DNA of 40,966 nucleotides from assembly GCA_900317585.1 (NCBI GenBank), contig ONHG01000033.1, positions 1 through 40,966 of the forward strand. The letters run 5' to 3'. Made by a program: the position numbers and the translations under genes. The first letter of the stretch is position 1. Each line of letters begins with the position of its first letter. Source of the stretch: an uncultured Lachnospiraceae bacterium. GTDB taxonomy: Bacteria > Bacillota > Clostridia > Lachnospirales > Lachnospiraceae. The notes below the pieces were generated by a model that worked only from the letters and a program-made list of their open reading frames with translations, made no database searches and was not told where the DNA came from. Shown here in pieces: positions 19,298 through 39,472 of this stretch.

Positions 19298-19518
19298 CAC
19301 AAAGAAACTGAATATGTAGCATAAAGGTGTCGGAGCAGACAAGCATTTGAATCTGATTTATGACAGGCGATGTGAAGCTGGCTCCGGTGAAAAGGGAAAC
19401 AGGTGCAAATCCTGTACGAACTCGTCACCGTAATTAAGGAGTGACGGCCGATAGGTCACTGGGCAACCGGGAAGACGGCCGAAGCAATGATATATAAGCC
19501 GGGAGACCTGCCTTTGTG
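19298..19518 (+). ncRNA. Cobalamin riboswitch
   Basis: The closing stem P1 is CACAAAG (19298-19304) with CTTTGTG (19512-19518). Between them lie the conserved elements of the cobalamin aptamer: AAAGGTGTCGG (19323-19333), AAAAGGGAAACAGGTG (19390-19405), the B12 box region GGTCACTGGGCAACCGGGAAG (within 19453-19475, conserved core CACTG) and GGGAGACCTGCC (19501-19512). Adenosylcobalamin or a related corrinoid should bind and reduce expression of the genes that follow. It is the only B12-box element I see in the window. Confidence 0.95.
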
Positions 19519-19520
19519 TT

Positions 19521-19565
19521 GTACGGAAACAATAGTGTTTCAAGCCACGAGTAACTGGCTGTACG
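19521..19565 (+). promoter_or_regulatory. Riboswitch expression platform, possible three-way junction
   Basis: GTAC (19521-19524) can pair with GTAC (19562-19565). Enclosed are two perfect hairpins: GAAACA/TGTTTC (19526-19531 with 19536-19541, loop ATAG) and AGCCA/TGGCT (19543-19547 with 19556-19560). A further CAGAC/GTCTG pair (19586-19590 with 19611-19615) lies before the terminator. About 120 bases separate aptamer and terminator, longer than a simple switch needs. Confidence 0.4.
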
Positions 19566-19639
19566 TGATGAAATAATTATAATTACAGACAAGGTTATGA
19601 TAGCCGTATAGTCTGGGTTAGAAGGATTTTGACATGTAT

Positions 19640-19678
19640 AGCTCTTTGACATAATAGTACAAAGAGCTTTTATTTTTG
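19640..19678 (+). terminator. Intrinsic terminator controlled by the cobalamin riboswitch
   Basis: AGCTCTTTG (19640-19648) pairs perfectly with CAAAGAGCT (19660-19668), followed by TTTATTTTT. It lies between the aptamer and the first gene, so B12 binding probably favours termination here. Confidence 0.85.
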
Positions 19679-19756
19679 ACGCTTTAAATGTTTTCGTCTT
19701 ACATATTTAAAACATGTGCAGCTTAATAGCTGCAAGGAGAATGAAAAGGAGAAAAC

Positions 19757-20968
19757 ATGAAAAAGAAATTAGTAGTAGTACTGATGGCAGCAGTTATGGC
19801 TATGACAGCAGTGACCGGTTGTGGCAGCAAGGCAGATGATGCAAAGAATGATACACAGGCATCTAAGACTTCAGAGAGTGAGACAAGTGCAAACGCAGAT
19901 CAGGAGGCAGCAATGCATGTGGCAGATTTAATCGATGCAATCTACGTGCAGGAGAGAACAGATGATACAGACAAGCAGTGCAAGGAGTCTAAGGAGGCCT
20001 GGGACAAGCTCACAGACGCGCAGAAGGAGCTTGTAGAGGGAGAAAATGCTGATCCTGACTATTTCGGCAGAGATACAGGCGATGCTTCAAAGGATGATCC
20101 GAGAAACCAGGATGATATCGGCGAGAACGAGATTCTTGTAGTAAGCTTTGGTACATCCTTCAACGACAGCCGTGTGGCTGATATCAAGGGTGTGGAGGAT
20201 GCAATAGCAGCTGCAAATCCTGACTGGTCAGTCAGAAGAGCCTTCACAGCACAGATTATCATCAATCATGTACAGGCAAGAGATGACGAGAAGATTGACA
20301 ATATGGATCAGGCACTTGAGCGTGCAGTCAAAAATGGTGTAAAGAATCTTGTGGTACAGTCTACACACCTGATGCATGGCGCAGAGTATGATGAGCTTTC
20401 AGAGGCTGTAGAAAAGTATAAGGATAAATTTGAGTCTGTAAAGATTGCAGAGCCACTCCTCGGTGAGGTTGGAAGTGATGCAACAGTTGTAAATGAGGAT
20501 AAAAAGGCTGTTGCAGAAATTCTCACAGAGGAAGCTGTAGAAAAGGCAGGCTATGACAGCCTTGATGCTGCAAAGGAAGAGGGCACAGCATTTGTATTTA
20601 TGGGACATGGAACAAGCCATACAGCAAAGATTTCATACAGCCAGATGCAGAGCCAGATGACATCTTTGGGGTATGATAACGTATTTATCGGAACTGTAGA
20701 GGGTGAGCCGGAGGATACATCATGTGAGTCTGTCATTGAGAAGGTGTCAGCCGCTGGTTACAAGAATGTCATTCTTCGTCCGCTTATGGTTGTTGCAGGA
20801 GACCATGCCAACAATGATATGGCGGGAAGTGATGATGATTCATGGCTTTCACAGTTTAAGGCATCAGGAAAGTTCGATAAAATCGATACACAGATTAACG
20901 GACTTGGTGAGATTGAGGGTATCCAGAAGCTTTATGTTGAGCATACAGCGGCTGCCATGAGCAAGTAG
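19757..20968 (+). CDS. cbiK: Lipoprotein CbiK-type cobaltochelatase (surface-anchored)
   Basis: CbiK inserts Co2+ into sirohydrochlorin in the anaerobic B12 pathway and belongs to the ferrochelatase-like fold. The 403-residue protein has a lipoprotein signal with lipobox VTGC (C22), a Ser/Thr/Asp-rich linker, a short helical segment at about 52-95 (AWDKLTDAQKELV, as seen in other surface proteins), then the CbiK domain at about 125-400. Likely metal ligands are present: H204 in QSTHLMHG, E315 in GTVEG and H350 in VAGDHANNDMAG. The export signal implies action outside the membrane, where the usual substrate is not made. Desulfovibrio has a periplasmic CbiK isoform that binds heme, a known precedent. 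First gene after the riboswitch. Confidence 0.92.
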   Translation: MKKKLVVVLMAAVMAMTAVTGCGSKADDAKNDTQASKTSESETSANADQEAAMHVADLIDAIYVQERTDDTDKQCKESKEAWDKLTDAQKELVEGENADPDYFGRDTGDASKDDPRNQDDIGENEILVVSFGTSFNDSRVADIKGVEDAIAAANPDWSVRRAFTAQIIINHVQARDDEKIDNMDQALERAVKNGVKNLVVQSTHLMHGAEYDELSEAVEKYKDKFESVKIAEPLLGEVGSDATVVNEDKKAVAEILTEEAVEKAGYDSLDAAKEEGTAFVFMGHGTSHTAKISYSQMQSQMTSLGYDNVFIGTVEGEPEDTSCESVIEKVSAAGYKNVILRPLMVVAGDHANNDMAGSDDDSWLSQFKASGKFDKIDTQINGLGEIEGIQKLYVEHTAAAMSK

Positions 20969-21025
20969 CAGTTACTTAAATGTATAGTGGGGAAGCTATA
21001 AAATAACAGGAGCAGTATATCAGAC

Positions 21026-21937
21026 ATGAGAAAATTATTAAGAAACAAGTTTACTTATATCGTTGCAATGACACTGGTTTGTGCTATGAGCTTGGCAGCT
21101 TGCGGTAATAAGAATGCAAAAGCTGAAACAGAAAGCAAAAAAGCAGTGCAGGACGCGACAGAGAGCACAAAAAAGGCTGAAAAAACAGAAAAGATAGCAC
21201 TTTCAGATGGTACATATACAGCAGAGTTTACTACAGACAGCTCAATGTTTCATGTGAATGATGCATATGACAACAAAGGTACACTCACCGTGAAGGATGG
21301 CAAGGCAACAATACATGTTGCTCTTACATCCACACACATTGTAAATCTCTTTTTGGGAACAGCAAAGGATGCCTCAAAGGACAAGGCTGAGCTTTTAGAG
21401 CCAACTGTTGAGACTGTGGATTGTGGCGATGGCACAACTGAGGAGGTCAATGCGTTTGATATACCGGTTCCTGTTTTGGATGAGGAATTTGACCTTGCAC
21501 TTATCGGTACAAAGGGCAAATGGTATGACCACAAGGTAAAGGTCTCAAATGTCACACCTGCGGACGCAGATGCAAGCGTATCTGAGAGTGCAGGAAAAGA
21601 GCTTCCTGACGGAACATACAATATCAATCTCGATTTCGAGGGCGGAAGCGGTAAGGCGAGCATTGCATCACCGGCTGAGGTGACTATAAGCGGTGGAGCC
21701 GCTACTGCAACAGTGCAGTGGAGCAGTCCAAACTATGACTATATGATAGTTGACGGACAGAAATACATGCCTGTAAATACAGACGGCAATTCTGTATTTG
21801 AAATTCCGGTTAAGCTTGATACACCTATGCAGGTTATCGGAGATACAGTTGCTATGAGCAAGCCGCACGAGGTTGAGTACACACTCAACTTCCATTCAGA
21901 TTCTGCTACAGAGGTGCTTGGTGAGGATGGAGAATAA
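21026..21937 (+). CDS. Lipoprotein with two NEAT-like beta domains
   Basis: 303 residues with a signal peptide and lipobox LAAC (C26), a Lys/Glu-rich linker, and two related beta-rich domains at about 55-175 and 193-295. Both begin with DGTY, then have a strand of the type TVKDGKATIHV (domain 1) or TISGGAATATV (domain 2), an FDIPV or FEIPV strand, and a final YDHKVKV or PHEVEYTL strand. This layout resembles NEAT heme-binding domains, including SSMFHVNDAY near residue 72, but similarity is weak and I am not certain. Its place between cbiK and an ABC importer suggests binding of a tetrapyrrole, corrinoid or metal at the surface. Confidence 0.72.
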   Translation: MRKLLRNKFTYIVAMTLVCAMSLAACGNKNAKAETESKKAVQDATESTKKAEKTEKIALSDGTYTAEFTTDSSMFHVNDAYDNKGTLTVKDGKATIHVALTSTHIVNLFLGTAKDASKDKAELLEPTVETVDCGDGTTEEVNAFDIPVPVLDEEFDLALIGTKGKWYDHKVKVSNVTPADADASVSESAGKELPDGTYNINLDFEGGSGKASIASPAEVTISGGAATATVQWSSPNYDYMIVDGQKYMPVNTDGNSVFEIPVKLDTPMQVIGDTVAMSKPHEVEYTLNFHSDSATEVLGEDGE

Positions 21938-21944
21938 TTAAGCT

Positions 21945-23177
21945 ATGCATGGAAGAAAAAAGATAATTATATATATATTGATATCAATTATAGGACTGTT
22001 CTGGCTGTCAGGCTGTGACAGTCCTTCTTCCGATTCAGGGAATACCGAATCGAAGGCTGAGGCAGAAGCACAAAACGGTCTTATATATAAGAGCAGCATG
22101 AAGCTTTTATATGCAAAGAATTTTTCTGTTGACTATTATGAGGGTGGATACAAGATACTTATTACAAAGGACGGTACCCAAATACTTACCGTGCCAAAGG
22201 GCAGAAAGACTCCAAAGGATATTGACAAGGATATCATTGTATTGAAGGAGCCTGTAAGTGATTTGTATCTGGTCGCATCAGGGGTGATGGATATGTTTGA
22301 CAAGCTTGATGCAGTGGACACTATTAAATTTTCGGGGCTTGACAGTGATGGCTGGTACATTGACAGTGCAAGAAAGGCTCTTGAAAGTGGCAGAATGCTA
22401 TATGCCGGCAAATATTCAAAGCCCGATTATGAGCTTTTGGTGTCAGAAAACTGTTCTCTTGCCATAGAAAATACTATGATTACCCATTCGCCGCAGGTAA
22501 CGGAAAAGCTTAAAAGCTTTGATATCCCTTCAATAATCGAGTACTCAAGCTATGAGGAGGAGCCGCTCGGCAGAGTGGAGTGGGTGAAGTTTTTTGGAGC
22601 ACTCACAGACAGGGATGAAAAGGCCGATGAGCTCTTTAATGAGCAGGTGGATATTGTAAATCGCATCGCAAAGACAGATGGTACCGATACGGATGATGCC
22701 ACAAAAAGTGATACCTCTATAAAAAGTGATACTGCTGCAAATGATGATAGCAGACCGACAGTTGCATTTTTCTATATCACATCCAATGGACAGGTTCAGG
22801 TGCGCAAGAGCACAGATTATGTGCCAAAGATGATTTCGCTTGCCGGCGGAAAATATATTTTTGATGCATCAAATGACGACGATACAGGCAGGTCAACCAT
22901 GAATATGCAGCTAGAGGATTTCTACAATGGAGCAATAGATGCTGACTATCTGATATATAACAGTGCGATAGACGGCGGTGTGAAGAATATAGCTGAGCTT
23001 TTGGACAAGTGCCCGGTGCTTGCTGATTTTAGGGCAGTCAAAGACGGCAATGTATTTTGCACCACGAACGATATGTATCAGCAGTCTATGTCCATCGGAT
23101 ATATGATTGATGATATGCATTCGATGATTACAGGTGCACCCGACAGCGGCATGAAATATCTGTTTAAGCTCAGGTAA
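21945..23177 (+). CDS. ABC transporter substrate-binding lipoprotein (BtuF/FecB type)
   Basis: 410 residues with lipobox LSGC (C24) and the two-lobe periplasmic-binding fold of the iron-siderophore/heme/cobalamin class: LYLVASGVMDMFDKLDAVDTI near residue 105, IIEYSSYEEEPLGRVEWVKFFG near 200, and DADYLIYNSAIDGG near 325. A low-complexity Asp/Thr/Ser stretch at about 244-265 interrupts the middle. It starts seven bases after the NEAT-like gene and is followed by the matching permease. The cargo could be cobalamin, cobinamide, heme or a chelate; control by a B12 riboswitch favours a corrinoid or cobalt. Confidence 0.88.
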   Translation: MHGRKKIIIYILISIIGLFWLSGCDSPSSDSGNTESKAEAEAQNGLIYKSSMKLLYAKNFSVDYYEGGYKILITKDGTQILTVPKGRKTPKDIDKDIIVLKEPVSDLYLVASGVMDMFDKLDAVDTIKFSGLDSDGWYIDSARKALESGRMLYAGKYSKPDYELLVSENCSLAIENTMITHSPQVTEKLKSFDIPSIIEYSSYEEEPLGRVEWVKFFGALTDRDEKADELFNEQVDIVNRIAKTDGTDTDDATKSDTSIKSDTAANDDSRPTVAFFYITSNGQVQVRKSTDYVPKMISLAGGKYIFDASNDDDTGRSTMNMQLEDFYNGAIDADYLIYNSAIDGGVKNIAELLDKCPVLADFRAVKDGNVFCTTNDMYQQSMSIGYMIDDMHSMITGAPDSGMKYLFKLR

Positions 23178-23277
23178 CTGTGATTTGTGGAATGTATGTG
23201 GTGGGCTGAATTGTTACCGGATATGACAGAATGCAGTAAAATCAATAGCACAAAAAGATAAAAAGCGGAGCTACAAC

Positions 23278-24294
23278 ATGGAAAAAACCAAAAAAATAAG
23301 GTGTTTTACAACATTTATTATTCTTATAATCTTAATTATCGTATTGCTTATCATGAATGTGTGTATAGGAACTGTACACATATCGTTTAAGGCTGCATTT
23401 TCAACACTTTATGACCACTCAGACAGGGTAGGACGTATTGTGTGGGATATCCGCATGCCAAGAGCTATCGCAGCGATGATACTGGGCGGTGCGTTAGCGC
23501 TTGCAGGCTATCTTTTGCAGACTTTTTTCCATAATCCAATCGCGGGACCTTTTGTACTTGGCATATCATCGGGAGCCAAAATGGTCGTGGCACTTGTTAT
23601 GGTATTTTTACTTGGAAATGCCATACGTGTGAGCTCACTGGCCATGATTGCAGCAGCGTTTTTGGGAGCAATGCTTTCAATGGGATTTGTGCTTATCATT
23701 TCAAGAAAGGTAAGCAGCATGTCAATGCTTGTGGTGAGCGGTGTCATGATTGGCTACATATGCTCTGCGGTGACTGAGTTTGTGGTGACATTTGCAGATG
23801 ATTCCGATATAGTAAACCTGCATAACTGGTCAAGGGGAAGCTTTTCGGGCATGACCTGGGACAGCGTTGGGGTGATGAGCATTGTGGTGGGAATCACATT
23901 TATCTTTGTTTTTCTCATGTCAAAGCCCCTTATGGCATATCAGCTCGGAGAGTCATATGCCGTAAATCTGGGTGTAAACATAAAGTGCATCCGGGTACTT
24001 CTGGTTCTGCTTTCAAGCCTGCTTTCCGCATGTATAGTGGCGTTTGCGGGACCGATATCGTTTGTCGGAATAGCCGTGCCACACATAGTAAAAAGCATGC
24101 TAAAGAGCACAAAGCCTATATATATGATACCGGCCTGCTTCCTTGGGGGAGCGGTGTTCTGCCTGTTTTGTGATTTGCTTGCGAGGATGATGTTTGCGCC
24201 TACGGAGCTTAGTATCAGCACGGTTACGGCAGTATTTGGTGCACCGGTAGTGCTGTTTATCATGATAAGACGAAGCAAGGAGAAAAATGTCTGA
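23278..24294 (+). CDS. FecCD/BtuC-family ABC transporter permease
   Basis: 338 residues, almost entirely membrane helices (nine to ten). Family motifs are clear: RMPRAIAAMILGGALALAGYLLQ near residue 56, NPIAGPFVLGISSGA near 85 and FAGPISFVGIAVPHIVK near 245, the last being the ATPase-coupling region. It should form a dimeric channel for the substrate delivered by the upstream lipoprotein. Its TGA overlaps the ATG of the ATPase gene by one base, so translation is coupled. AGCGGAGC precedes the start. Confidence 0.93.
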   Translation: MEKTKKIRCFTTFIILIILIIVLLIMNVCIGTVHISFKAAFSTLYDHSDRVGRIVWDIRMPRAIAAMILGGALALAGYLLQTFFHNPIAGPFVLGISSGAKMVVALVMVFLLGNAIRVSSLAMIAAAFLGAMLSMGFVLIISRKVSSMSMLVVSGVMIGYICSAVTEFVVTFADDSDIVNLHNWSRGSFSGMTWDSVGVMSIVVGITFIFVFLMSKPLMAYQLGESYAVNLGVNIKCIRVLLVLLSSLLSACIVAFAGPISFVGIAVPHIVKSMLKSTKPIYMIPACFLGGAVFCLFCDLLARMMFAPTELSISTVTAVFGAPVVLFIMIRRSKEKNV

Positions 24295-25421
24295 TGGAAT
24301 ATTATTTTACTGCTCAAAAGCTGGCCGTTGGATATGATAACAGGCCGCTTATTGAAAATATTGATTTTTCCCTGAAAAGGGGAGAGATTCTCACATTAAT
24401 CGGGCCAAACGGTGCCGGTAAATCGACTATTTTAAAAAGTATTGCAAGACAGCTTTCGCTTGTGAGCGGTACAATATATCTTGATAAAAGTGATGTAGTG
24501 ACGATGAATGGCAATGAATTTGCAAAGAAAATGGCTGTTGTGCTCACCGATAAGCTAAAGACGGAGCTTATGACCTGCTATGATGTGGTTGCGACCGGCA
24601 GATATCCATACACAGGCCGGTTCGGAGTACTTTCGGATGAGGACAAAAAGGCTGTGGATGAGGCGATGGAGCTGGTCAATGTATCACAGATAAAAGATAA
24701 GGATTTTACAAAGATAAGCGATGGACAAAGACAGCGGGTTATGCTGTCACGGGCCATATGCCAACAGCCGGAGATTATAGTGTTAGACGAGCCTACCTCA
24801 TATCTTGATATAAAGTACAAGCTTGAGTTTTTATCAATACTCCAAAGGCTTAAAAGACAGAAGAATCTTACGGTTATCATGTCGCTCCATGAGCTTGATA
24901 TGGCAAAGCGTGTGTCAGACCATATTTTGTGTATAGATGGCAGATATGTGGACAGATACGGAACTCCCGGGGAGGTATTTACTGACCAATATGTTTCAGG
25001 GCTTTTTGGAATTACGGCAGGAAGCTTTGACGAAACAGGAGAGGATTTAGAGCTGGAAAAACCGGATGGAATGGCGAGGGTATTTGTCATAGCAGGAGGG
25101 GGCATGGGCAGAAAAAGCTTCAGGAGCTTACAGCGAAAGGGTATCCCGTTTGCGACAGGAATCATCTATGAAAATGATCTGGATTATCCTGCGGCAAAGG
25201 CGCTTTCTGCTGAGATTGTCAGCGCAAGAAGCTTTGAGCCTGTAGACGATGCCCTTATTGAAAAGGCAAAGGAGCTTATTGATGCATGCGAGGGCGTTGT
25301 ATGTGACAGAACAGAGTTTGGCACGTATGAGCAGTTTAACAGCAGACTTTATGAGTATGCAGTCTCTACAGGAAAAATTATAAAAATTCCTTTTCTTGAG
25401 GAACAATTGGCACAGCTTTAA
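24294..25421 (+). CDS. FecE/BtuD-family ABC ATPase with extra C-terminal domain
   Basis: 375 residues, versus about 250-260 for ordinary BtuD/FecE. The ATPase core (about 1-255) has Walker A GPNGAGKST at residues 37-45, a signature ISDGQRQRV near 141 (SDGQ rather than SGGQ), Walker B IIVLDEPTS near 161 and a switch histidine in MSLHELD. Residues about 258-375 form an additional alpha/beta domain beginning RVFVIAGGGMGRK, with ATGIIYENDLDYPAAKAL and CDRTEFGTYEQFN; I do not recognise its function. It powers the upstream permease and lies just before the B12 synthesis genes. Confidence 0.92.
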   Translation: MEYYFTAQKLAVGYDNRPLIENIDFSLKRGEILTLIGPNGAGKSTILKSIARQLSLVSGTIYLDKSDVVTMNGNEFAKKMAVVLTDKLKTELMTCYDVVATGRYPYTGRFGVLSDEDKKAVDEAMELVNVSQIKDKDFTKISDGQRQRVMLSRAICQQPEIIVLDEPTSYLDIKYKLEFLSILQRLKRQKNLTVIMSLHELDMAKRVSDHILCIDGRYVDRYGTPGEVFTDQYVSGLFGITAGSFDETGEDLELEKPDGMARVFVIAGGGMGRKSFRSLQRKGIPFATGIIYENDLDYPAAKALSAEIVSARSFEPVDDALIEKAKELIDACEGVVCDRTEFGTYEQFNSRLYEYAVSTGKIIKIPFLEEQLAQL

Positions 25422-25502: not shown

Positions 25503-27008
25503 ATGGCAAAGGTAATTATGGTACAGGGTACAATGTCCAATTCAGGCAAGAGCTTTCTTGTCGCGGGCTTGTGCCGTATTTTCAGACAGGACGGATACAG
25601 GGTGGCACCGTTTAAATCACAGAACATGGCGCTCAACTCTTATATAACAGACGAAGGACTTGAGATGGGACGGGCACAGGTGATGCAGGCTGAGGCAGCA
25701 GGCATTAAGCCTATGGTGTGTATGAATCCTATTCTTTTAAAGCCTACAAATAATACAGGCTCACAGGTGATTGTAAACGGAAGGGTTCTTAAGAACATGC
25801 CGGCGAGAGAGTATTTTGCATACAAGAAAACTCTGATACCGGATATAAAAAAGGCATTTAAAAAGCTTGAGGAGTATGCTGATATTATAGTGATTGAGGG
25901 CGCCGGAAGCCCGGCGGAGATAAATCTGAAGGAAAATGATATTGTAAACATGGGGCTTGCGCATATGGTGGATGCACCGGTGCTGCTCGTGGGTGATATC
26001 GACAGAGGTGGCGTTTTTGCGCAGCTGCTTGGCACACTTATGCTTTTAACCGATGAGGAAAAGAATCGTGTCTGCGGGCTTATTATCAATAAATTTCGTG
26101 GAGACAAGACGATCCTTGACCCGGGGATACAGATGCTTGAGGAGAGAGGCGGGGTGCCTGTCACCGGAGTGGTGCCATATATGGATGTACAGCTTGAGGA
26201 TGAGGACAGCCTGACAGAGCGCTTTGACAAAAAGACAGATGGGCTTATTGATATAGCGGTCATCAGATATCCGAGAATATCAAATTTCACGGATTTCAAT
26301 GTCTTTGAGCAGATGTCAGAGGTAACAGTGCGGTATGTGTCAACAGTAAATGAGCTGCGTCATCCGGATATAGTATTTCTGCCGGGAAGCAAGAATACGA
26401 TGGGGGATCTTTTGTGGATGAGACAAAACGGACTTGAGGCCGCTGTCAAAAAGCTCTCCTGTGAGATACCTGTTTTTGGAATATGCGGAGGCTATCAGAT
26501 GCTTGGGGCTTCAATAGCCGACCCCGACGGTGTTGAGGAGGGAGGATTTATGCGTGGCATGGAGCTTCTTCCTATAGATACCGTTCTAAAAGACAGCAAG
26601 ACACGGCTTCAGACAAGCGGTGAAATAGCACATGTAGATGGTGTATTGAGCAGGCTTTCAGGCTGTCACTTTCTGGGCTATGAGATACATATGGGTAAGA
26701 GCGCATATAGCACAGCTTTAGATGAGCAGGGGGCTTGTGCTGACAGGAAAAATGAGTTAAATAATGTCATATCTGATGGCAGAAATGTGTATGGCTCGTA
26801 CATCCACGGCATTTTTGATACTGCAGAGGCAGCCAGAGTGATAGTGGATTATATTGCCGATAAAAAGGGCATTGATGTGAATGACAGCGCCATTTTAAGC
26901 TATAAGAGCTTCAAAGAAAAACAGTATGACAGGCTTGCGGATACACTTAGAGAGTATCTGGATATGGATGCAGTGTACGGCATGCTTCGTGAGGCAAAAT
27001 ATGATTGA
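25503..27008 (+). CDS. cobQ: Cobyric acid synthase
   Basis: CobQ (CbiP) amidates four carboxyls of adenosyl-cobyrinic acid a,c-diamide using glutamine and ATP. The 501-residue protein has the N-terminal dethiobiotin-synthetase-like domain ([11 protein letters not shown] at residues 8-19; [12 protein letters not shown] near 39) and the C-terminal glutaminase-like domain with nucleophile C328 (GICGGYQML) and H435 (YIHGIFD). Length and motifs are normal. The ribosome site is weak (CAGGTA). It begins the synthesis part of the operon, 81 bases after the transporter, and overlaps cobT by eight bases. Confidence 0.96.
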
Positions 27009-28092
27009 AAACAATATTATTTCTGACCATTTTACAGTTGAAGAATTAAAAAAATTAAAAATAACTCCACCTGATGCAAAAATGTACAAAAAAATCCGTT
27101 CAAACTGGGATTCTGTGGCAAAACCGCTCGACGGCATGGGTGATTTTGAGTTTTTAACGGCCAAAATCGGCGCTGTTTTGGGAGATGAAAATATAGATAT
27201 CTCAAAAAAGGTGGTCATAATGATGTGTGCGGATAATGGTGTGGTTGCTGAGGGCATCAGCCAGTCCGGACAGGATGTGACACTTGCAGTTGCAAAATCC
27301 ATGGCAAGGAAGGCTTCATCTGTCGGACGCATGGCAATGACTGCAGGGGCTGATACAATTCCTGTGGATATAGGCATAAACAGCGACGAGAGTGTTAAGG
27401 GGCTGCTTCAAAGAAAGGTGCGCATGGGCACGAGAAACTTTGCAAAAGAGCCTGCCATGACAAGGGCTGAGACACTTGAAGCGATTGCAGCAGGTATAGA
27501 AATAGTGCGTGGGTGTAAGGCAGACGGCTGCAGAATTATTGCAACCGGTGAGATGGGTATAGGAAACACCACCACCAGCGCGGCAATGGCAGCCGCCATG
27601 CTAAGGTGTGATGTAGCCACAGTGACAGGAAGAGGAGCAGGCCTAAACGACAGTGGGCTTGAGAGAAAAATCCGTGTAATTGAGAGTGCAATAGAAAAGT
27701 ATGATTTATATAATAAGGACACCTTTGAGATACTTATGACAGTCGGAGGACTTGATATTGCAGGACTTGTCGGAGTGTGTATAGGCGGTGCATTATACCA
27801 TATTCCTGTTGTGCTCGACGGAGTGATAAGCATGGTTTCTGCGTTGGCAGCAGGAAGGCTTCTTTCCGGAGTTACTGATTTTATCATTCCATCCCATGAG
27901 GGCAGGGAGCCTGCAGTGGCGCTTTTGTGTGAGGCTCTTTCCGTAAGGCCTGTCATAAGAGCATCCCTTGCGCTTGGAGAGGGAACAGGTGCCGTGATGA
28001 TGTTTGCGCTTTTGGATATGGCACTTAGCGTATACAAAGGACGGACAACCTTCGACGATATCTCGGTATCACAGTATGAGAGGTACGTATAG
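27001..28092 (+). CDS. cobT: Nicotinate-nucleotide-dimethylbenzimidazole phosphoribosyltransferase
   Basis: CobT activates the lower-ligand base as alpha-ribazole phosphate from nicotinate mononucleotide. The 363-residue protein shows [10 protein letters not shown] at 41-50, [14 protein letters not shown] near 78, a glycine-rich [13 protein letters not shown] near 181 and SHEGREPA near 300. I placed the start at ATG 27001, inside the end of cobQ; the frame extends further back but only as a shadow of cobQ. Its stop directly abuts the cobU ATG. Confidence 0.96.
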
Positions 28093-28719
28093 ATGATTAC
28101 ACTTATAACAGGCGGCAGCGGCAGCGGCAAATCAGCATATGCAGAAAAGTATATTTGTCACGTGTCAAATGAAAAGGGATACAAAGAAAAATATTACATT
28201 GCCACCATGCAGGTATTTGATGATGAGGGACAGCGGAAGATAGACAGGCACAGAAGACTTCGTGCCGGAAAAGGCTTTATTACCATCGAGCAGCCTCGTG
28301 ATATTAAAAAGGCATTTGAAAAGCTGCAATCAGAAAGCAGTTTAAAAACCGGGCGGTCAGCACTGCTTGAGTGTATGTCAAACCTTGTGGCAAATGAGAT
28401 GTTTCCACCTGTAGATGCTTCCGGTATGCAGGCTGCCGAAGCTGAGAAAGAGGCTTTGGATGACCCTGAAAATATGAAGGATTATGAGACTGCTCAAATC
28501 AGCCGTGTGAGTAAAAAGGTGTTAAAAGAGGTAAGTATCTTAAGCGAAAATGTTGCTGAGCTTGTAATTGTGACAAACAATGTATTTGAAGACGGAGTCT
28601 GCTATGATGAATCGACGATGAATTACATAAAGGCAATGGGAATTGTAAACATAGGGCTTGCTGCGATGGCAGAGCGTGTCGTTGAGGTGGTTGCAGGCAT
28701 TCCGGTGACGGTTAAGTGA
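28093..28719 (+). CDS. cobU: Adenosylcobinamide kinase / guanylyltransferase
   Basis: CobU phosphorylates adenosylcobinamide and transfers GMP to it in nucleotide-loop assembly. The 208-residue protein has the P-loop GGSGSGKS (7-14), YYIATMQVFDDEGQRKI, the histidine region DRHRRLR expected to hold the guanylylated His, and LLECMSNLVANEMF. The C-terminal stretch is divergent: the usual EVGxGIVP is replaced by NVFEDGVCYDES, and an insertion with Glu/Asp residues lies at about 115-135. A second CobU-like gene nearby keeps the missing motif. Confidence 0.9.
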   Translation: MITLITGGSGSGKSAYAEKYICHVSNEKGYKEKYYIATMQVFDDEGQRKIDRHRRLRAGKGFITIEQPRDIKKAFEKLQSESSLKTGRSALLECMSNLVANEMFPPVDASGMQAAEAEKEALDDPENMKDYETAQISRVSKKVLKEVSILSENVAELVIVTNNVFEDGVCYDESTMNYIKAMGIVNIGLAAMAERVVEVVAGIPVTVK

Positions 28720-28743
28720 AGCAGTGTGGAGGTTAAGTGTATT

Positions 28744-29508
28744 ATGAAGTTAATAAGGTCGTGCATAGTATCTTTTTCCATGTATTCAAAGATACCTATG
28801 CCACAATTCAAATGGAATGATGATGACATGAAGTACATGCAGGTATTCTTTCCGTGGATAGGAGCTGTGATTGGACTGCTTCTTATGCTTTGGAGATATA
28901 TATACTCTCATTTTGGAGTGGCGGATATCTGCTATGTATGCATAGGGGCATTTATTCCGATAGCGGTTACTGGAGGTTTTCACATAGATGGTTTTATGGA
29001 TACAATGGATGCATTTCATTCATACAAACCGCGGGAGGAAAAGCTTGCAATACTTAAGGATTCACATATAGGAGCGTTTGCCGTTATAATGCTTGCAGCC
29101 TACGGATTATTATTCATGGGAGCTTTTTCTCAGATAATGAATGATAAAGCATTTATTGTTTTTTGTGCAGGCTTTTTCATCGCAAGATGCTTAAGCGGGA
29201 TAGCTGTTGTGTCATTTAAATCGGCAAAAAGCGATGGACTGTTATTTATGTTTGCAGACACTGCACACAGAACGATTGTCAGGGCAGCACTATACATCCA
29301 GCTTGCACTGTGTATAGCTGTTTTACTCATTGTGTCACTGCCTTATGCGGTGGCTATGATTATTGCGGCAGCACTTAGCTTTTGGTATTATTATTTGAAA
29401 ACAAAAAAGGAGCTTGGCGGCATCACAGGCGATACGGCAGGGTATTTTGTGTGTATATGTGAGTGCGCCATGGCAGTGGCTTTGGGTGGTGTCTCTTTTA
29501 TTATTTAG
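28744..29508 (+). CDS. cobS: Adenosylcobinamide-GDP ribazoletransferase (cobalamin synthase)
   Basis: CobS is the membrane enzyme joining adenosyl-GDP-cobinamide and alpha-ribazole (phosphate). The 254-residue protein has six to seven hydrophobic helices and the acidic motif GGFHIDGFMDTMDA at residues 77-90, which binds the metal. ATG 28744 follows GGAGG by 11 bases; an in-frame GTG at 28726 overlaps that ribosome site and is rejected. It lies 24 bases after cobU. Confidence 0.94.
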   Translation: MKLIRSCIVSFSMYSKIPMPQFKWNDDDMKYMQVFFPWIGAVIGLLLMLWRYIYSHFGVADICYVCIGAFIPIAVTGGFHIDGFMDTMDAFHSYKPREEKLAILKDSHIGAFAVIMLAAYGLLFMGAFSQIMNDKAFIVFCAGFFIARCLSGIAVVSFKSAKSDGLLFMFADTAHRTIVRAALYIQLALCIAVLLIVSLPYAVAMIIAAALSFWYYYLKTKKELGGITGDTAGYFVCICECAMAVALGGVSFII

Positions 29509-29596
29509 TATATTTGTTTTGAATATAGGAATGGTACGGATAAGAATTTTGATAAAAGTTGTACTATGAATTTTAAACTTTGGAATTGGAGAAAAT

Positions 29597-30043
29597 ATGA
29601 AGCTTGTGATAGGCGGAGTGGCACAGGGAAAGCTTGATTATGTGCTCGAAAATATGATAGAAAAAACAGAAAAATATGATGTGTATGACTGCTTTTTCCT
29701 AAATCATGATACTTGTGATGATAAGGAATCATACAAGGACTGGCCGTGGGATTTTGTCGTCGATGATGAGAGTATACTCATAATAGATAAATTCCATTAT
29801 TTTATCAGGGCTGTGCTTGAGAAAAATCTTCCACTGCAGGAATATATTTTGAAATTTATGCAATTTGCAGAGGAAAATCCGGATACAATAGTCATTGCTG
29901 ATGAGATTGGAAACGGCATAGTGCCTCTTGATGCGTTTGAGAGAGAGTACAGGGAGCAGACAGGCAGAGCAGAGATACTGCTTGCAAAAAAAGCAGACGA
30001 GGTAGTTCGCGTAATATGTGGAATCGGTCAGAAAATAAAATAA
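29597..30043 (+). CDS. Small CobU-like protein with degenerate P-loop
   Basis: 148 residues. The N terminus MKLVIGGVAQGKLDYV resembles CobU, but the P-loop ends in K-L instead of K-S/T. The His region and about 50 residues of CobU are missing. The C-terminal part IADEIGNGIVPLDAFERE through TGRAEILLAKKADEVVRVICGIGQKIK matches the CobU signature that the upstream cobU lacks (quoted in pieces). It could be a partner or modulator of CobU, a separate guanylyl-binding protein, or an enzyme with altered activity. Its gene overlaps cobC by 28 bases, so it is part of the cluster. Confidence 0.78.
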   Translation: MKLVIGGVAQGKLDYVLENMIEKTEKYDVYDCFFLNHDTCDDKESYKDWPWDFVVDDESILIIDKFHYFIRAVLEKNLPLQEYILKFMQFAEENPDTIVIADEIGNGIVPLDAFEREYREQTGRAEILLAKKADEVVRVICGIGQKIK

Positions 30044-30690
30044 ACTGTATTTTTATAAGACACGGTTGCACCATCTCAAACAGAGAGCACAGATATCTGG
30101 GAAGGACAGATGAGCCACTCGATGAAGCCGGAGTTTTTGAACTTAAAAATGCGCTAAATAATGGTGTATACAAGGCTTTGGAAGAAAATAGCTTAAAGGA
30201 GCAGATAATTATTACCAGCCCAATGAGGCGCTGTAAACAGACGGCAGAGATTATTTTGCCGGTCGCACAGCACAATATAATTCATACCGTAAAAGAGTTT
30301 GCAGAGATGGATTTCGGTGAATGGGAGCTAAAAAGCTATAAGGAACTTAGCACAGATATCCGTTTCAGGGACTCATATCAGGCGTGGATTGACAGTGGTG
30401 GAACACTTGCCTTTCCAAACGGAGAGAGCAGAAAAGAGTTTTGCAAAAGAAGTATATGTGGCTTTGAGAGGGCACTCACACAGGCATTAGAGCTTAAGAG
30501 GGCTATGCCTGATAAAGAGATACAAATAGTATTTTTTGTGCATGGAGGGACTATCATGGCGATAATGAGCCATTACTGTGATATGGATTACTATGATTAC
30601 CAGGTGAAAAACGGCTGTGGCTACTCGTGTGAGGTGGCGGTTGAGGGCAATGAGATTGTGTTTAATGAAATAGTGCCCATATCGCTATGA
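30016..30690 (+). CDS. cobC: Histidine phosphatase, probable alpha-ribazole-5'-phosphate phosphatase
   Basis: 224 residues of the histidine phosphatase (phosphoglycerate mutase) superfamily. Catalytic R15-H16-G17, TSPMRRCKQTA near residue 70, an acidic EMDFGEWELKSYKEL near 98 and a second histidine H176 (FVHGGTIM) are all present. In this cluster it most likely removes phosphate from alpha-ribazole phosphate or adenosylcobalamin phosphate. No other start codon lies between ATG 30016 and the RHG motif, so the 28-base overlap with the preceding gene is real; GAGGT is 12 bases upstream. Confidence 0.9.
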   Translation: MWNRSENKINCIFIRHGCTISNREHRYLGRTDEPLDEAGVFELKNALNNGVYKALEENSLKEQIIITSPMRRCKQTAEIILPVAQHNIIHTVKEFAEMDFGEWELKSYKELSTDIRFRDSYQAWIDSGGTLAFPNGESRKEFCKRSICGFERALTQALELKRAMPDKEIQIVFFVHGGTIMAIMSHYCDMDYYDYQVKNGCGYSCEVAVEGNEIVFNEIVPISL

Positions 30691-30712
30691 TTTATTTAAG
30701 AAGGACTAACAT

Positions 30713-31705
30713 ATGTGTTATCATATTTTTGCATTTATAGCAGGCTTTGTGCTTGATTTATTAATAGGAGATCCGCATTTTATACCGCATCCGGTCAGGC
30801 TTATCGGCTCACTCATTTCTTTTCTCGATAAGAGGCTTAATTGTGATGCCGGATATAATATCTCTGAAAAAAAATTAAATTTAATAAAATATAAAAGAGG
30901 CATGCTTCTTGCTTTTACTGTAATTTTTGCAACTTTTGCAATATCGGTAATTATTATTGTGGCAGCATACAGTATAAATTTATATGCCGGGGTAATAGCA
31001 GAGGCTGTCATGACGTGGCAGATTCTTGCCACAAAGTGTCTTCGTGTGGAGAGCATGAGGGTGTACGATGCGCTAAGGACAGATGGAGTTGATGCAGGAA
31101 GAAGGGCTGTTTCCATGATTGTTGGCAGAGATACATCTGTGCTTGATGCAGCTGGTGTCACAAGGGCGGCAGTTGAGACGATAGCTGAAAATACATCTGA
31201 CGGAGTGATTGCACCTATGCTTTACACGGCAATCGGCGGGCCGGTGCTTGGCTTTGTATACAAGGCTGTGAATACGATGGATTCGATGCTTGGCTACAAA
31301 AATGATAAATATATGTATTTTGGCAGATTTGCTGCAAGGCTTGATGATGTGGTCAATTTCATACCGGCAAGAATCAGTGCATATCTGATGATTGCTGCGG
31401 CATTTATTGGTGGCAGGCAGTTTGATGGAAAAAATGCATACCGCATCTTTAAAAGAGATCGTTTCAATCACGCAAGCCCCAACTCAGCCCAGACAGAGTC
31501 CGTATGTGCGGGAGCTTTAAGGGTGCAGCTTGCGGGTGATGCAGTGTATTTTGGGAAGCTTGTGAAGAAAAAATACATAGGAGACGGCCTGCGTGAGATA
31601 GAGTACGATGATATAAAGCGTGCAAACAGGCTGATGTATATTACTGCGTTTTTGTGTGAGCTTTTATCTGTGGCGGTTATGAGTCTTGTTTTAATATTGC
31701 TTTGA
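30713..31705 (+). CDS. cbiB: Adenosylcobinamide-phosphate synthase
   Basis: CbiB attaches aminopropanol phosphate to adenosylcobyric acid. The 330-residue membrane protein begins with the family pattern LDLLIGDPHFIPHPVRLIG, and has VGRDTSVLDAAGVTRAAVETIAEN (given in part), GGPVLGFVYKAVNTMDSMLGY in the centre and SPNSAQTESVCAGAL near residue 255. Four to five membrane segments are visible. AAGGA precedes the ATG. cobD, which makes its aminopropanol phosphate substrate, follows directly. Confidence 0.94.
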   Translation: MCYHIFAFIAGFVLDLLIGDPHFIPHPVRLIGSLISFLDKRLNCDAGYNISEKKLNLIKYKRGMLLAFTVIFATFAISVIIIVAAYSINLYAGVIAEAVMTWQILATKCLRVESMRVYDALRTDGVDAGRRAVSMIVGRDTSVLDAAGVTRAAVETIAENTSDGVIAPMLYTAIGGPVLGFVYKAVNTMDSMLGYKNDKYMYFGRFAARLDDVVNFIPARISAYLMIAAAFIGGRQFDGKNAYRIFKRDRFNHASPNSAQTESVCAGALRVQLAGDAVYFGKLVKKKYIGDGLREIEYDDIKRANRLMYITAFLCELLSVAVMSLVLILL

Positions 31706-31744
31706 ATATGGAAGAATTGATGTAAGAATTGATGGAGGACTTGA

Positions 31745-32806
31745 ATGAAAAGCATCCATGGCGGTGACATATACAACAATAAAGTAAATATGGATTTTTC
31801 GGTAAATATCAATCCTCTTGGCATACCGCATTCTGTTAAAGAGGCTATGAGTGATGCACTGTCGTATGCAGACAGATATCCCGACATGGCATGCAGTGGC
31901 CTTAAAAAAGCGATATCAGAGTATTTCACACAGCAAGGCTGCAGCATGCAAAGCGAGGATGTAATTCCCGGAAACGGAGCTTCAGAGCTTTTTATGGCGG
32001 TAGCTCATGCCATAAAGCCCAAAAAAGCAGTGCTTCTGGCCCCGGGCTTTTTCGGCTATGAGCATGTGCTTCGTGCAGTCGGCTGTGATATCGGATATTT
32101 CCTGTTGGATGAGCAGAGTGATTTTTCTCCTGCTGCACGGCTGGATGCTTTAATGGATATGCTTACAGATGATACAGATATATTTTTTATCGCAAATCCA
32201 AACAATCCGACAGGGTATCTTGCAGACAGCACTTTCATGAAGCAAATAATAGGGCATTGCAAAGAAAAGCATATTTATGTGGTGGCAGATGAATGCTTCA
32301 TGGGCTTTTGTGAAAAAAATTATTCTGTTTTGTCACTTTTATGTGACTATGACAATCTGATTGTTGTAAGAGCCTTTACCAAGCTTTTTGCTATTCCGGG
32401 AGTAAGGCTTGGATATATGCTCAGTAAAAGTGATACAATAAGACAAAAGGTTCAAAGGAATCTGCCGGAGTGGAACGTGTCTGTCCTGGCACAGATGGCA
32501 GGAGAGGCATGCATTAGGGAATCAGAGTATATTAAAGAAACGACATCGTATGTGAGCAGACAAAGAAGGCTGCTGTCAGATGGACTAAAAAAGCTTGGCT
32601 TTAAGGTATATAAAAGTGATGCTGATTTCATACTGTTTTACAGCAAGCTTCCATTATATGATATACTTCTTAATAAGGGAATACTGATACGGGACTGCTC
32701 CAACTATGTGGGGCTTTCGGAAGGGTATTTTCGTGTGGCAGTAAAGACTTATGATGAAAATGTAAGATTATTGAAAGTGATAGGTGAGTGTATTGAAAAA
32801 AATTAA
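31745..32806 (+). CDS. cobD: Threonine-phosphate decarboxylase
   Basis: CobD is a PLP enzyme that decarboxylates threonine phosphate to (R)-1-amino-2-propanol phosphate for the nucleotide loop. The 353-residue class-I/II aminotransferase fold shows DFSVNINPLG at 18-27, GNGASELF, IANPNNPTGY, VVADECFMGF and PLP lysine K213 in FTKLFAIPGVRLGY. CbiB upstream uses its product. ATG follows GGAGG with six bases spacing. Its end overlaps cbiC. Confidence 0.92.
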   Translation: MKSIHGGDIYNNKVNMDFSVNINPLGIPHSVKEAMSDALSYADRYPDMACSGLKKAISEYFTQQGCSMQSEDVIPGNGASELFMAVAHAIKPKKAVLLAPGFFGYEHVLRAVGCDIGYFLLDEQSDFSPAARLDALMDMLTDDTDIFFIANPNNPTGYLADSTFMKQIIGHCKEKHIYVVADECFMGFCEKNYSVLSLLCDYDNLIVVRAFTKLFAIPGVRLGYMLSKSDTIRQKVQRNLPEWNVSVLAQMAGEACIRESEYIKETTSYVSRQRRLLSDGLKKLGFKVYKSDADFILFYSKLPLYDILLNKGILIRDCSNYVGLSEGYFRVAVKTYDENVRLLKVIGECIEKN

Positions 32807-33434
32807 ACAGTTAGAGCCGATGGAGATTGAAAAGAGGAGCTTTGAGATAATTTCACATGAGCTGTCTGAAATGCAGATTACGCTGCCTGCTGATCAGGAG
32901 ATGATAACAAAAAGAGTCATACACACGAGTGCTGATTTTGATTATATACAGACGCTTAAATACTCTAAGGACGCCGTTGCTATTGCAAAAAGGCTGATAT
33001 CAGAGGGCGCTGATATAGTGACTGATACCAATATGGCTCTTTCAGGCATAAATAAAAAATATCTGGCAAAATTCGGCGGACAGGCGCACTGCTTTATGGC
33101 TGATGATGAGGTCGCTCTTATTGCAAAGGAGAAAAAGACAACGCGCGCGGCAGTAAGCATGGAGTTTGCATCAAGGATAGAAAAGCCTGTAATTTTTGCG
33201 ATAGGAAATGCACCGACAGCGCTTATAGAGCTGTACGATATGATAGAAAAAGGAATATATGAGCCTGCATTTGTAATCGGTGTGCCGGTGGGCTTTGTCA
33301 ATGTGGAGGCAGCCAAGGAGCTAATTATGGAGACAGGCGTGCCGTATATCGTCAATGTCGGACGAAAGGGTGGCAGCAATATTGCGGCTGCCATATGCAA
33401 TGCGCTGATTTACAGTCTGGTTGATAGAGGCTGA
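32793..33434 (+). CDS. cbiC: Cobalt-precorrin-8 methylmutase
   Basis: CbiC moves the C-11 methyl group to C-12, giving cobyrinic acid. The 213-residue protein has PMEIEKRSFEII near the N terminus, the catalytic-histidine region RVIHTSADFDY near 32, and ITDTNMALSGI-like and GNAPTALIEL motifs. Start choice: TTG 32793 sits five bases after AGGTGA (32782-32787); GTG 32784, three codons earlier, is the alternative but has a poor ribosome site. Either start overlaps the cobD stop. Confidence 0.93.
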   Translation: MKKIKQLEPMEIEKRSFEIISHELSEMQITLPADQEMITKRVIHTSADFDYIQTLKYSKDAVAIAKRLISEGADIVTDTNMALSGINKKYLAKFGGQAHCFMADDEVALIAKEKKTTRAAVSMEFASRIEKPVIFAIGNAPTALIELYDMIEKGIYEPAFVIGVPVGFVNVEAAKELIMETGVPYIVNVGRKGGSNIAAAICNALIYSLVDRG

Positions 33435-33450
33435 TGCATGAGGAAATTTA

Positions 33451-34605
33451 GTGATTATGAGATACGGATTTACCACAGGAAGCTGTGCTGCGGCGGCATC
33501 AAAGGCGGCGGCATATATGCTTTTAACCGGAAAGGCTAAAAACAAAATAACGATTCAGACACCTAAGGGAATAGCTTACACGGCTGATATCACCGACATA
33601 AAAAGAAGTGAAAACGATGTAAGCTGTGCTGTGATAAAGGATGGAGGGGATGACCCGGATGTGACCACAGGAGCCTATATATATGCTTCTGTACGGATTT
33701 TGCATTCCGATACATCTGCTTTATGCAAAAAAAGGCAGGATTTGGTTATAATAAATATAGACGGTGGTGACGGAGTGGGAAGAGTCACCAAACCCGGATT
33801 AGACCAGCCTGTCGGAAACGCGGCTATCAATCATGTGCCGCGTGAGATGATTGAAAAAGAGGTAAGGGAGGTCTGTGAGCTTTTGGATTTTAAGGGGATA
33901 CTTGACATCACAATCTCGGTTCCAAAGGGAAAGGAGCTTGCAGAAAGGACCTTTAATCCAAGGCTTGGGATAGTTGGTGGTATATCAATTCTCGGCACAA
34001 GCGGTATTGTTGAGCCCATGAGCTCACAGGCTCTTATTGATACGATAAGGGTGGAGCTTAGGCAGAGATATTCGTTTGGGTATGATTATGTGGCGGTTGC
34101 TCCGGGAAATTACGGTCTTGACTTTATGAAGGAAAGCTATGGCTATGATCTGGACAGGAGTGTCAAATGCTCCAACTTTATCGGCGAAACAATTGATATG
34201 GCAGCAGATATGGGGTTTAAGAGGATACTTTTGACAGGACATATAGGAAAGCTCATAAAGGTAGCAGGAGGCATCATGAACACTCATTCGAGGGAGGCAG
34301 ACTGCAGGATAGAGCTTTTGACGGCATTTGCGTTTAAGTGTGGTGTAGCGCCCGAATACATAAAGCGCATTATGGACAGCCTTACGACAGAGGAGGCCCT
34401 GGCGGCACTTAATGAAAGCGGCAGGCTGTATGAGGTAATGGATTATGCGATGGAGCGCATATGCTTTTATCTGGATAAGAGGGCAAGGGGCAGACTTGAG
34501 ATAGACTGTATCATGTATTCAAATGAATTTGGTGAGCTTGCAAAAAGCAGAAAGGCAGAAAAATGGTTTACTTTGTTGGCGCAGGAACAGGCGCAGCGGA
34601 TTTAA
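33451..34605 (+). CDS. cbiD: Cobalt-precorrin-5B (C1)-methyltransferase
   Basis: CbiD methylates C-1 after ring contraction in the anaerobic pathway. The 384-residue protein opens with RYGFTTGSCAAAASKAA, contains DGGDDPDVTTGA near residue 64, GVGRVTKPGLDQPVG near 110 and GTSGIVEPMS near 180. GTG 33451 is six bases after GAGGA; ATG 33457, two codons later, is the alternative. The 3' end overlaps cbiF by 43 bases. CbiD marks the cobalt-early rather than oxygen-dependent route. Confidence 0.94.
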   Translation: MIMRYGFTTGSCAAAASKAAAYMLLTGKAKNKITIQTPKGIAYTADITDIKRSENDVSCAVIKDGGDDPDVTTGAYIYASVRILHSDTSALCKKRQDLVIINIDGGDGVGRVTKPGLDQPVGNAAINHVPREMIEKEVREVCELLDFKGILDITISVPKGKELAERTFNPRLGIVGGISILGTSGIVEPMSSQALIDTIRVELRQRYSFGYDYVAVAPGNYGLDFMKESYGYDLDRSVKCSNFIGETIDMAADMGFKRILLTGHIGKLIKVAGGIMNTHSREADCRIELLTAFAFKCGVAPEYIKRIMDSLTTEEALAALNESGRLYEVMDYAMERICFYLDKRARGRLEIDCIMYSNEFGELAKSRKAEKWFTLLAQEQAQRI

Positions 34606-35339: not shown

Positions 35340-35372
35340 AAAAAGGCGTGAATATATAAATATGGGAAATAT

Positions 35373-36515: not shown

Positions 36516-36521
36516 TCATAA

Positions 36522-36551
36522 ATGAGGGGCAAAATACCTTTTGACCCTCAT
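36522..36551 (+). other. Intercistronic hairpin between cbiG and cbiH
   Basis: ATGAGGG (36522-36528) pairs with CCCTCAT (36545-36551), then a single G-A mismatch, then CAAAA (36530-36534) pairs with TTTTG (36539-36543), leaving loop TACC. No T tract follows, so it is not a standard terminator; it may affect mRNA processing or stability. Confidence 0.6.
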
Positions 36552-36612
36552 ATCATTAAAAAATTGCAAATAGCTGCGTGGTTATATAAAATTAGTAGAG
36601 ATGGAGATTAAC

Positions 36613-39391: not shown

Positions 39392-39472
39392 CCAGGGCTT
39401 TTATGCTACAACCCGTAATAAATCATCGAAGGCTAATACTTTAAGGTATATGATGAAATAAAGGATGAATAC

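Follow-up and report, generated by a model that had tools for sequence, protein, structure and literature searches.

Organization of the locus

The stretch of DNA analysed here, called the window, is the entire contig ONHG01000033.1 (40,966 nucleotides; contig C43 of its genome) of an uncultured Lachnospiraceae bacterium (assembly GCA_900317585.1; 86.6% complete). Its main subject is a five-gene module behind a cobalamin riboswitch, which comprises a lipoprotein form of the chelatase CbiK, a lipoprotein with NEAT-type domains, and a three-part ATP-binding cassette (ABC) importer. The five genes share one direction and then run on into cob/cbi genes up to 40891. The features are the following:

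19359..19529, + strand, cobalamin riboswitch aptamer (RF00174, 88.1 bits, complete model 1-189)
19757..20968, + strand, exported CbiK chelatase, lipoprotein (PF06180, 6.5e-72)
21026..21937, + strand, lipoprotein with two NEAT-type domains, at about residues 59-178 and 191-296
21945..23177, + strand, substrate-binding lipoprotein, BtuF/FecB-like (PF01497, 6.6e-20; lipobox seen by eye in the translation)
23278..24294, + strand, BtuC/FecCD-type permease (PF01032, 2.3e-80)
24294..25421, + strand, ABC ATPase with a C-terminal extension of ~125 residues (PF00005, 1.8e-30)
25503..40891, + strand, 15 cob/cbi genes (Pfam/NCBIfam)

A preliminary description of this DNA had proposed a five-gene surface block behind a cobalamin riboswitch, and the RF00174 and Pfam matches, the lipobox and the intact metal ligands all agree with it.

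The exported chelatase

The window CbiK has a lipoprotein signal with Cys22, an N-terminal extension, and a CbiK domain at residues 126-401. The domain is full-length against PF06180 (profile positions 3-261 of 262) and scores 242.4 bits over a cut-off of 26.2. The lipobox, recognised by motif alone and without a signal-peptide program, is present in the window protein and at 65 of 67 exported loci in the genome sample described below, and the window protein is accordingly predicted to lie outside the cytoplasm. The metal ligands E89, H145, and H207 are intact in 69/69 exported CbiK sequences; among non-exported CbiK sequences, E89 is kept in 73/73 and H145 and H207 in 72/73 each. The window protein reaches 194 bits against NF047852, the equivalog model of sirohydrochlorin cobaltochelatase, whose cut-off of 400 is also missed by two non-exported CbiK of the family (290 and 273). 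Its closest solved relative is 9b86, with a chain named "Heme-binding protein FetB" (1.1e-38), and it also matches the CbiK-family chain 2xvx (8.8e-33).

A perfect Shine-Dalgarno sequence with an in-frame ATG (19913) lies inside the window cbiK at 19902-19915, past the signal peptide. An internal start that would give a cytosolic form is possible in the window's genome but is not general, as a contiguous Shine-Dalgarno match of at least 5 is found at the internal start in 15/139 exported genes and at the main start in 105/139.

The NEAT-type lipoprotein and the importer

The window NEAT-type protein scores 30.1 bits against PF05031, under the threshold of 32.8, and the same profile matches 34/36 aligned NEAT-type sequences at E≤0.001 (best 5.4e-9). 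A fold search returned the NEAT beta fold for this protein, with mostly heme binders among the matched structures; domain 1 was not returned on its own in that search, and a sequence search of solved structures gave nothing useful for the protein.

The binding lipoprotein, permease and ATPase make up a three-part importer of the FecCD family by PF01497, PF01032, and PF00005. No PDB match at E≤0.01 was obtained for the binding lipoprotein. With regard to corrinoid specificity, the permease matches the hemin permease HmuU (4g1u, 1.5e-48), FhuB (7lb8, 1.4e-45) and BtuC (1l7v, 7.4e-45) alike and falls under the NCBIfam cut-off for BtuC. The best NCBIfam match of the ATPase is NF007082, a corrinoid ABC transporter ATPase, at 213 bits with a cut-off of 537.

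Conservation of the module

The sample consisted of 200 genomes of the family, the window's own included, of which 120 have CbiK. Most CbiK regions were fetched, and the class was assigned from the N-terminus by motif and by eye. An exported-class CbiK is present in 67 genomes (own included), alone in 43 and together with a non-exported CbiK in 24; the class rests on a lipobox in 65, on an ordinary signal peptide in G088, and on position inside the exported clade in G104 (L067), where the signal is not recognisable. A further 47 genomes with cbiD have only non-exported CbiK, including G110 and G174, whose CbiK are contig-edge fragments with N-termini out of view, and G012 and G017, which were classed by their fetched copies, second copies aside.

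All 67 genomes with exported CbiK carry cbiD, compared to 120/200 overall. The riboswitch lies upstream of exported CbiK in 61/67 (59/67 under a stricter distance rule), NEAT is adjacent or fused in 65/67 (19 fused), and BtuF and BtuC follow downstream in 44/67, with several loci ending at contig edges. The window plus eight relatives confirmed by Rfam supplied the sequences for the riboswitch model, and these therefore match it by construction. By this model, six loci have no directly upstream riboswitch (L048, L056, L073, L075, L109, and L113); the first three have none by Rfam either, and in L075 it sits further upstream. At 48 non-exported control loci with flanks of up to 5 kb, the riboswitch is directly upstream in 2, NEAT is present in 1, and BtuF with BtuC in 2. 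The expectation in the preliminary description that the block would be conserved across genomes is thus borne out.

A scan of species genomes yielded a second set, 80 named loci that are the best of at least 559 and hence biased to close relatives. The set has the riboswitch at 74, NEAT at 79 (25 fused), and BtuF with BtuC at 62. It includes Eubacterium ramulus, Pseudobutyrivibrio, Butyrivibrio, Blautia, Faecalibacterium, Gemmiger, and Fournierella.

Control by B12 is partly common to both CbiK forms and not unique to the exported one. The 74 non-exported loci (the 48 controls and 26 with short flanks) include several riboswitches about 2-3 kb from CbiK, and the model, being trained on the exported type, may miss others there. 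At L085 (G014), a strong exported-type riboswitch (4655-4838, 126 bits by the model) immediately precedes a non-exported CbiK. The exported class is set apart by its NEAT partner and, at most loci, by the importer.

Fusion proteins

Besides the two-part CbiK-NEAT fusions, one exported protein has the order CbiK-NEAT-CbiK (L071). At seven loci, non-exported CbiK forms one protein with an ABC ATPase, identified as CbiO, the ATPase of the cobalt importer, by TIGR01166 over its cut-off in both proteins tested; its fusion partners elsewhere are HemC (L121), a CbiL-type methylase (L123 and L131), and CbiH (L026). The non-exported fusion loci are L011, L021, L024, L027, L030, L083, L094, L121, L123, L131, and L026; cobalt import, ring synthesis and corrin steps are linked there within single proteins. 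The fusions suggest that each form of CbiK is joined to the partners its supposed route needs: the cytosolic form to cobalt import and ring synthesis, and the exported form to a putative surface ring binder.

Gene losses in genomes with exported CbiK

Gene losses were counted over 120 cbiD genomes, comprising 43 with exported CbiK only, 24 with both forms, 47 with non-exported CbiK only, and 6 without CbiK. Searches for the cobalt importer covered CbiM and CbiN, and those for early steps covered HemB, HemC, CobA, SirC, and CbiL.

CbiM is over the cut-off in 0/43 exported-only genomes versus 30/47 non-exported-only genomes (Fisher 4e-12, a value that ignores relatedness), and in 0/6 CbiK-less genomes. 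CbiN agrees, with 0/43 versus 24/37, where the 37 include G088, later classed among genomes with both forms. In the non-exported-only genomes, CbiM lies within 6 kb of CbiK in 18/30. CbiM was over the cut-off in none of 40 genomes tested among the 80 without cbiD, and it therefore goes with B12 synthesis.

HemC and CobA are both present in 13/43 exported-only genomes (own included), 24/24 with both forms, 44/47 non-exported-only, and 1/6 CbiK-less genomes. HemB, HemC, and CobA are all missing in 28/43, 0/24, 2/47, and 5/6 of these groups, respectively, and CbiL in 18/43, 1/24, 0/47, and 5/6. SirC is missing as well as HemB, HemC, and CobA in 27/43 exported-only genomes, 12 of which also lack CbiL. 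G006 has a weak HemC match (28 bits) and G127 a weak HemB match (24 bits); both exceed the Pfam cut-offs but were counted as absent, and counting them as present changes 44/47 to 45/47 and 2/47 to 1/47. CbiL matches 0.3 to 4 bits under the cut-off (G007, G051, G175, and G194) were counted as present. Loss of HemB was rejected as the sole marker of salvage, since 17/47 non-exported-only genomes are also without HemB, and HemC and CobA are retained in 14 of these 17; among the sampled genomes of the family, it is common to find HemC without HemB.

Relatedness

Exported CbiK forms a single clade (SH-aLRT 97) on a quick tree of 70 rows, which include the non-exported CbiK of G051; that protein falls within the exported clade and has lost its signal peptide. 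E1, the group with the long extension, is nested inside E2. Exported CbiK of E1 (L032-L082) varies far less from genus to genus than non-exported CbiK, with shorter end branches, as if by lateral spread or stronger constraint.

In a tree built from the CbiD of 78 genomes, the exported-only and non-exported-only labels change at least 15 times (best tree), and hence the exported-only state is scattered over lineages. CbiD serves here as a proxy for genome phylogeny, and it may move with the operon. Path-disjoint pairs were drawn by a greedy script over all branches of the best CbiD tree, giving 14 pairs, with means taken over 300 random pairings. Loss of CbiM gave 8 pairs in the same direction, 0 opposite, and 6 equal (p 0.008), and loss of HemC and CobA gave 8.7/0/5.3 (median p 0.004). 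The corresponding values were 9.6/0/4.4 for HemB and 4.7/0/9.3 for CbiL (p 0.06). The mean number of opposite pairs was 0.0 in the results inspected, with single opposites in a few random pairings of one ring-synthesis trait.

A proposed route for cobalt and the ring

Where cbiD and its neighbours are kept and all earlier steps are missing, a ring at the level of sirohydrochlorin or factor III must be taken in, and the candidate for binding, metallating, and importing it is the CbiK-NEAT-importer module, which shares an operon with these genes. The reading we favour, and judge to be almost as probable as its opposite, is that this riboswitch-controlled surface module works outside the membrane, where it loads an early corrin precursor with cobalt, and then imports the product. 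Low cobalamin would first permit expression of the operon through the riboswitch. The NEAT-type domains, beside or fused to CbiK, would then hold a scavenged, metal-free ring of the sirohydrochlorin type, which we infer to be the substrate, and the lipoprotein CbiK would insert Co(II) with no need of ATP. Import through the BtuFCD-type proteins would follow, with Co-sirohydrochlorin as cargo or, in genomes without CbiL, Co-factor III, and the corrin operon would complete B12. Such a route would replace cytosolic CbiK and CbiMNQO and, in many genomes, also HemB/HemC/CobA/SirC and CbiL.

CbiK would suit a place outside the membrane because it works without ATP or accessory proteins and, with sirohydrochlorin present, has a Km(Co) of 0.79 nM (PMC10206600). 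Cobalt entering as a ring complex would make CbiMNQO unnecessary, which fits the absence of CbiM from the exported-only genomes. As CbiL is lost in 18/43, the route predicts that the ring used by some genomes already carries its C20 methyl group; for the 12/43 that lack HemB, HemC, CobA, SirC, and CbiL, this would mean import of a ring that has reached factor III.

The preliminary description had suggested that the module may capture a tetrapyrrole or corrinoid at the surface and add or remove its metal before import. Addition is favoured by the intact triad, the NEAT fusion, the absence of CbiM, and the loss of sirohydrochlorin synthesis in most exported-only genomes; removal, at which no test was aimed, gained no support. 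Beyond uptake, the constant company of cbiD ties the module to synthesis of the corrin ring.

Several observations weigh against the proposed route. Near exported CbiK, BtuF with BtuC is missing at 23/67 loci (some on cut contigs), and no consistent alternative neighbour appeared there among ten proteins tested from six loci. Of 74 non-exported CbiK genes, 7 have the riboswitch within 1.5 kb upstream and 13 have it within 5 kb. CbiM is present in only 5/24 genomes with both CbiK types, so that its loss is not tied only to a missing cytosolic chelatase. The window's own genome retains HemC, CobA-HemD, and SirC and so falls outside a strict definition of precorrin-2 salvagers, and 12 other exported-only genomes retain HemC and CobA. 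A scavenged ring is therefore not needed by all; such genomes may use the module as no more than an additional source, or may have cobalt inserted inside the cell by SirC. The same early losses in 5/6 cbiD genomes without CbiK imply that the losses, and ring uptake if real, are possible without this module; G031, G077, G109, G121, and G173 are the cbiD genomes without CbiK, HemB, HemC, and CobA. G051 (L135) and G127 (L108) carry non-exported CbiK and still lack HemC and CobA. Moreover, the exported-only genome G042 has a weak CbiX-like match elsewhere (C44, 26 bits). Finally, well-supported branches of the CbiD tree give only 6 pairs, with CbiM at 4/0/2 (p 0.125); this strict relatedness test lacks power.

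G127 combines non-exported CbiK and CbiM with the lack of HemC/CobA, as if it imported a metal-free ring. CbiX was set aside as a hidden second chelatase: by eye, the CbiX matches listed coincide with CbiK itself, the exceptions being G042:C44 and G069:C28.

Alternative explanations

CbiK and NEAT could instead form a receptor that catches finished or nearly finished corrinoids, such as cobinamide or cobalamin, for a plain BtuFCD importer, with no insertion of metal. The B12 riboswitch, the BtuFCD-like importer genes, the downstream genes serving corrinoids, and the best NCBIfam match of the ATPase, below its cut-off as it is, all suit such a receptor. However, binding alone has no need of a metal-ligand triad kept in 69/69 sequences, and uptake of finished corrinoids does not predict the retention of cbiD in 67/67 genomes, the loss of the prior steps in most exported-only genomes, or the absence of CbiM (present in 0/43). 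We consider this explanation unlikely.

In another explanation, the module acquires cobalt in place of CbiMNQO: CbiK would hold Co(II) or load any tetrapyrrole carrier, and the metal would matter rather than the ring. CbiM is rare wherever CbiK is exported, including the genomes that keep HemC and CobA, and a KD of 14 nM for Co(II) is given for CbiK (PMC10206600). Acquisition of the metal leaves the loss of HemB/HemC/CobA (28/43) and of CbiL (18/43) unexplained. FecCD-type importers, in addition, are known for chelates and not for bare metal ions. We regard this explanation as quite unlikely.

Metal exchange on heme or porphyrin for the supply of iron or heme, as proposed for IhtB/FetB and the periplasmic CbiK of Desulfovibrio, would agree with FetB as the closest solved relative, with the mostly heme-binding NEAT structures, and with HmuU as the nearest permease, but it is a little less likely still in view of the cobalamin element at 61/67 and 74/80 loci (the latter being the best 80 of at least 559), the restriction of exported CbiK to cbiD genomes, and an operon that runs into cob/cbi genes.

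The cob/cbi genes and the genome carrying the window

The cob/cbi genes begin with CbiP, CobT, CobU, CobS, a second CobU-like gene, CobC, CbiB, and CobD, and continue with CbiC, CbiD, CbiF, CbiG, CbiH, a CbiJ-E-T fusion, and CbiA; the single letters of the TP-methylases, phosphatase, and aminotransferase are our assumption from gene order and family. The fusion joins CbiJ, a CbiE-like TP-methylase, and a CbiT-like methyltransferase in one protein of 696 residues (37301-39391). The second CobU-like protein is short (29597-30043) and stands beside a full CobU (28093-28719).

At 86.6% completeness, 19757..20968 is the sole PF06180 gene found in this genome, and HemB was not found. CbiL lies on another contig (G000:C23), which also carries a TwoAYGGAY RNA motif (L142 9998-10165, 127.8 bits). 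SirC, HemC, and CobA-HemD are clustered on C38 (L143 4773-8310), adjoining a gene that by eye resembles homocysteine/O-acetylhomoserine sulfhydrylase.

Significance

It is a tentative proposal, one we would sooner doubt than assert, that gut Firmicutes metallate sirohydrochlorin or 20-methylated factor III from other microbes outside the cell through CbiK-NEAT and import the cobalt ring. If true, the ring would be a shared precursor and a cobalt carrier at once, which implies a trade in early tetrapyrroles in the gut. Precursor salvagers have been predicted from missing genes, and the parts of the literature consulted name no entry route for a ring at the sirohydrochlorin level; the module would supply one and would explain why numerous common gut bacteria keep the greater part of the B12 pathway minus its beginning. 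For annotation, de novo synthesis of B12 may be overestimated if every CbiK is taken for a cytosolic cobaltochelatase.

Comparison with known systems

Tetrapyrrole precursor salvagers: Shelton et al. (2019) defined these bacteria and examined three species for dependence on ALA (PMC6461909), and a review gives the precorrin-2 salvager class as 0.6% (PMC8123684). The genomes described here resemble them in retaining corrin genes while early tetrapyrrole genes are missing. The consulted part of Shelton et al. names no uptake system and no exported chelatase (PMC6461909).

Rumen genomes: A rumen study describes one genome that has both BtuFCD and a sirohydrochlorin cobaltochelatase and says that the enzyme transports and metallates sirohydrochlorin, citing work on Desulfovibrio (PMC12654859). 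Among the titles and beginnings of abstracts surveyed, there was no recognisable paper on exported CbiK in Firmicutes.

Cytosolic CbiK: The exported form shares with the cytosolic enzyme of S. enterica (1qgo) the domain and the three metal ligands. It differs in its lipoprotein signal, N-terminal extension, and separate clade, in having NEAT instead of CbiO/HemC/CbiL/CbiH as fusion partner, and in the absence of CbiM from exported-only genomes.

Periplasmic CbiK: The chain 2xvx is presumably the periplasmic CbiK of Desulfovibrio vulgaris, a protein of a two-membrane bacterium. We know of no NEAT or riboswitch module associated with it.

NEAT hemophores: Isd/IsdX, Hbp2, and Shp share the NEAT fold with the window protein, and PF05031 matches most of the aligned NEAT-type sequences of the module. 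These hemophores are under iron control and anchored by sortase, whereas the window NEAT is linked to cobalamin control and CbiK.

Porphyromonas gingivalis Iht/FetB: This is the closest known system, and it was not named when the preliminary description put the module forward as the best candidate for an undescribed system. An exported CbiK accompanied by an importer is thus already known; a cobalamin-controlled, NEAT-fused CbiK linked with corrin synthesis and with the disappearance of cobalt import and of the early ring-building steps was not found described in the titles and excerpts covered. We take IhtB to be FetB, solved as PDB 9b86. Iht consists of the TonB receptor IhtA, the CbiK-like lipoprotein IhtB, a binding protein, a permease, and an ATPase, and is thought to free iron from heme, with IhtB outside PgFur control (PMC10913741), while FetB is reported to act as a chelatase that produces Mn-protoporphyrin (PMC13402209). 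P. gingivalis is also listed as lacking the steps to precorrin-2 (PMC6461909), a gap that would fit salvage of a cobalt ring, although this link is drawn by the present analysis. In both systems, a CbiK-type lipoprotein is accompanied by a binding protein, a permease, and an ATPase. That of P. gingivalis also includes a TonB receptor of the outer membrane, of which there is none among the genes at 19757-25421, and is discussed for heme and iron, whereas the window's side has the cobalamin riboswitch, the NEAT fusion (as a class), and the cob/cbi operon.

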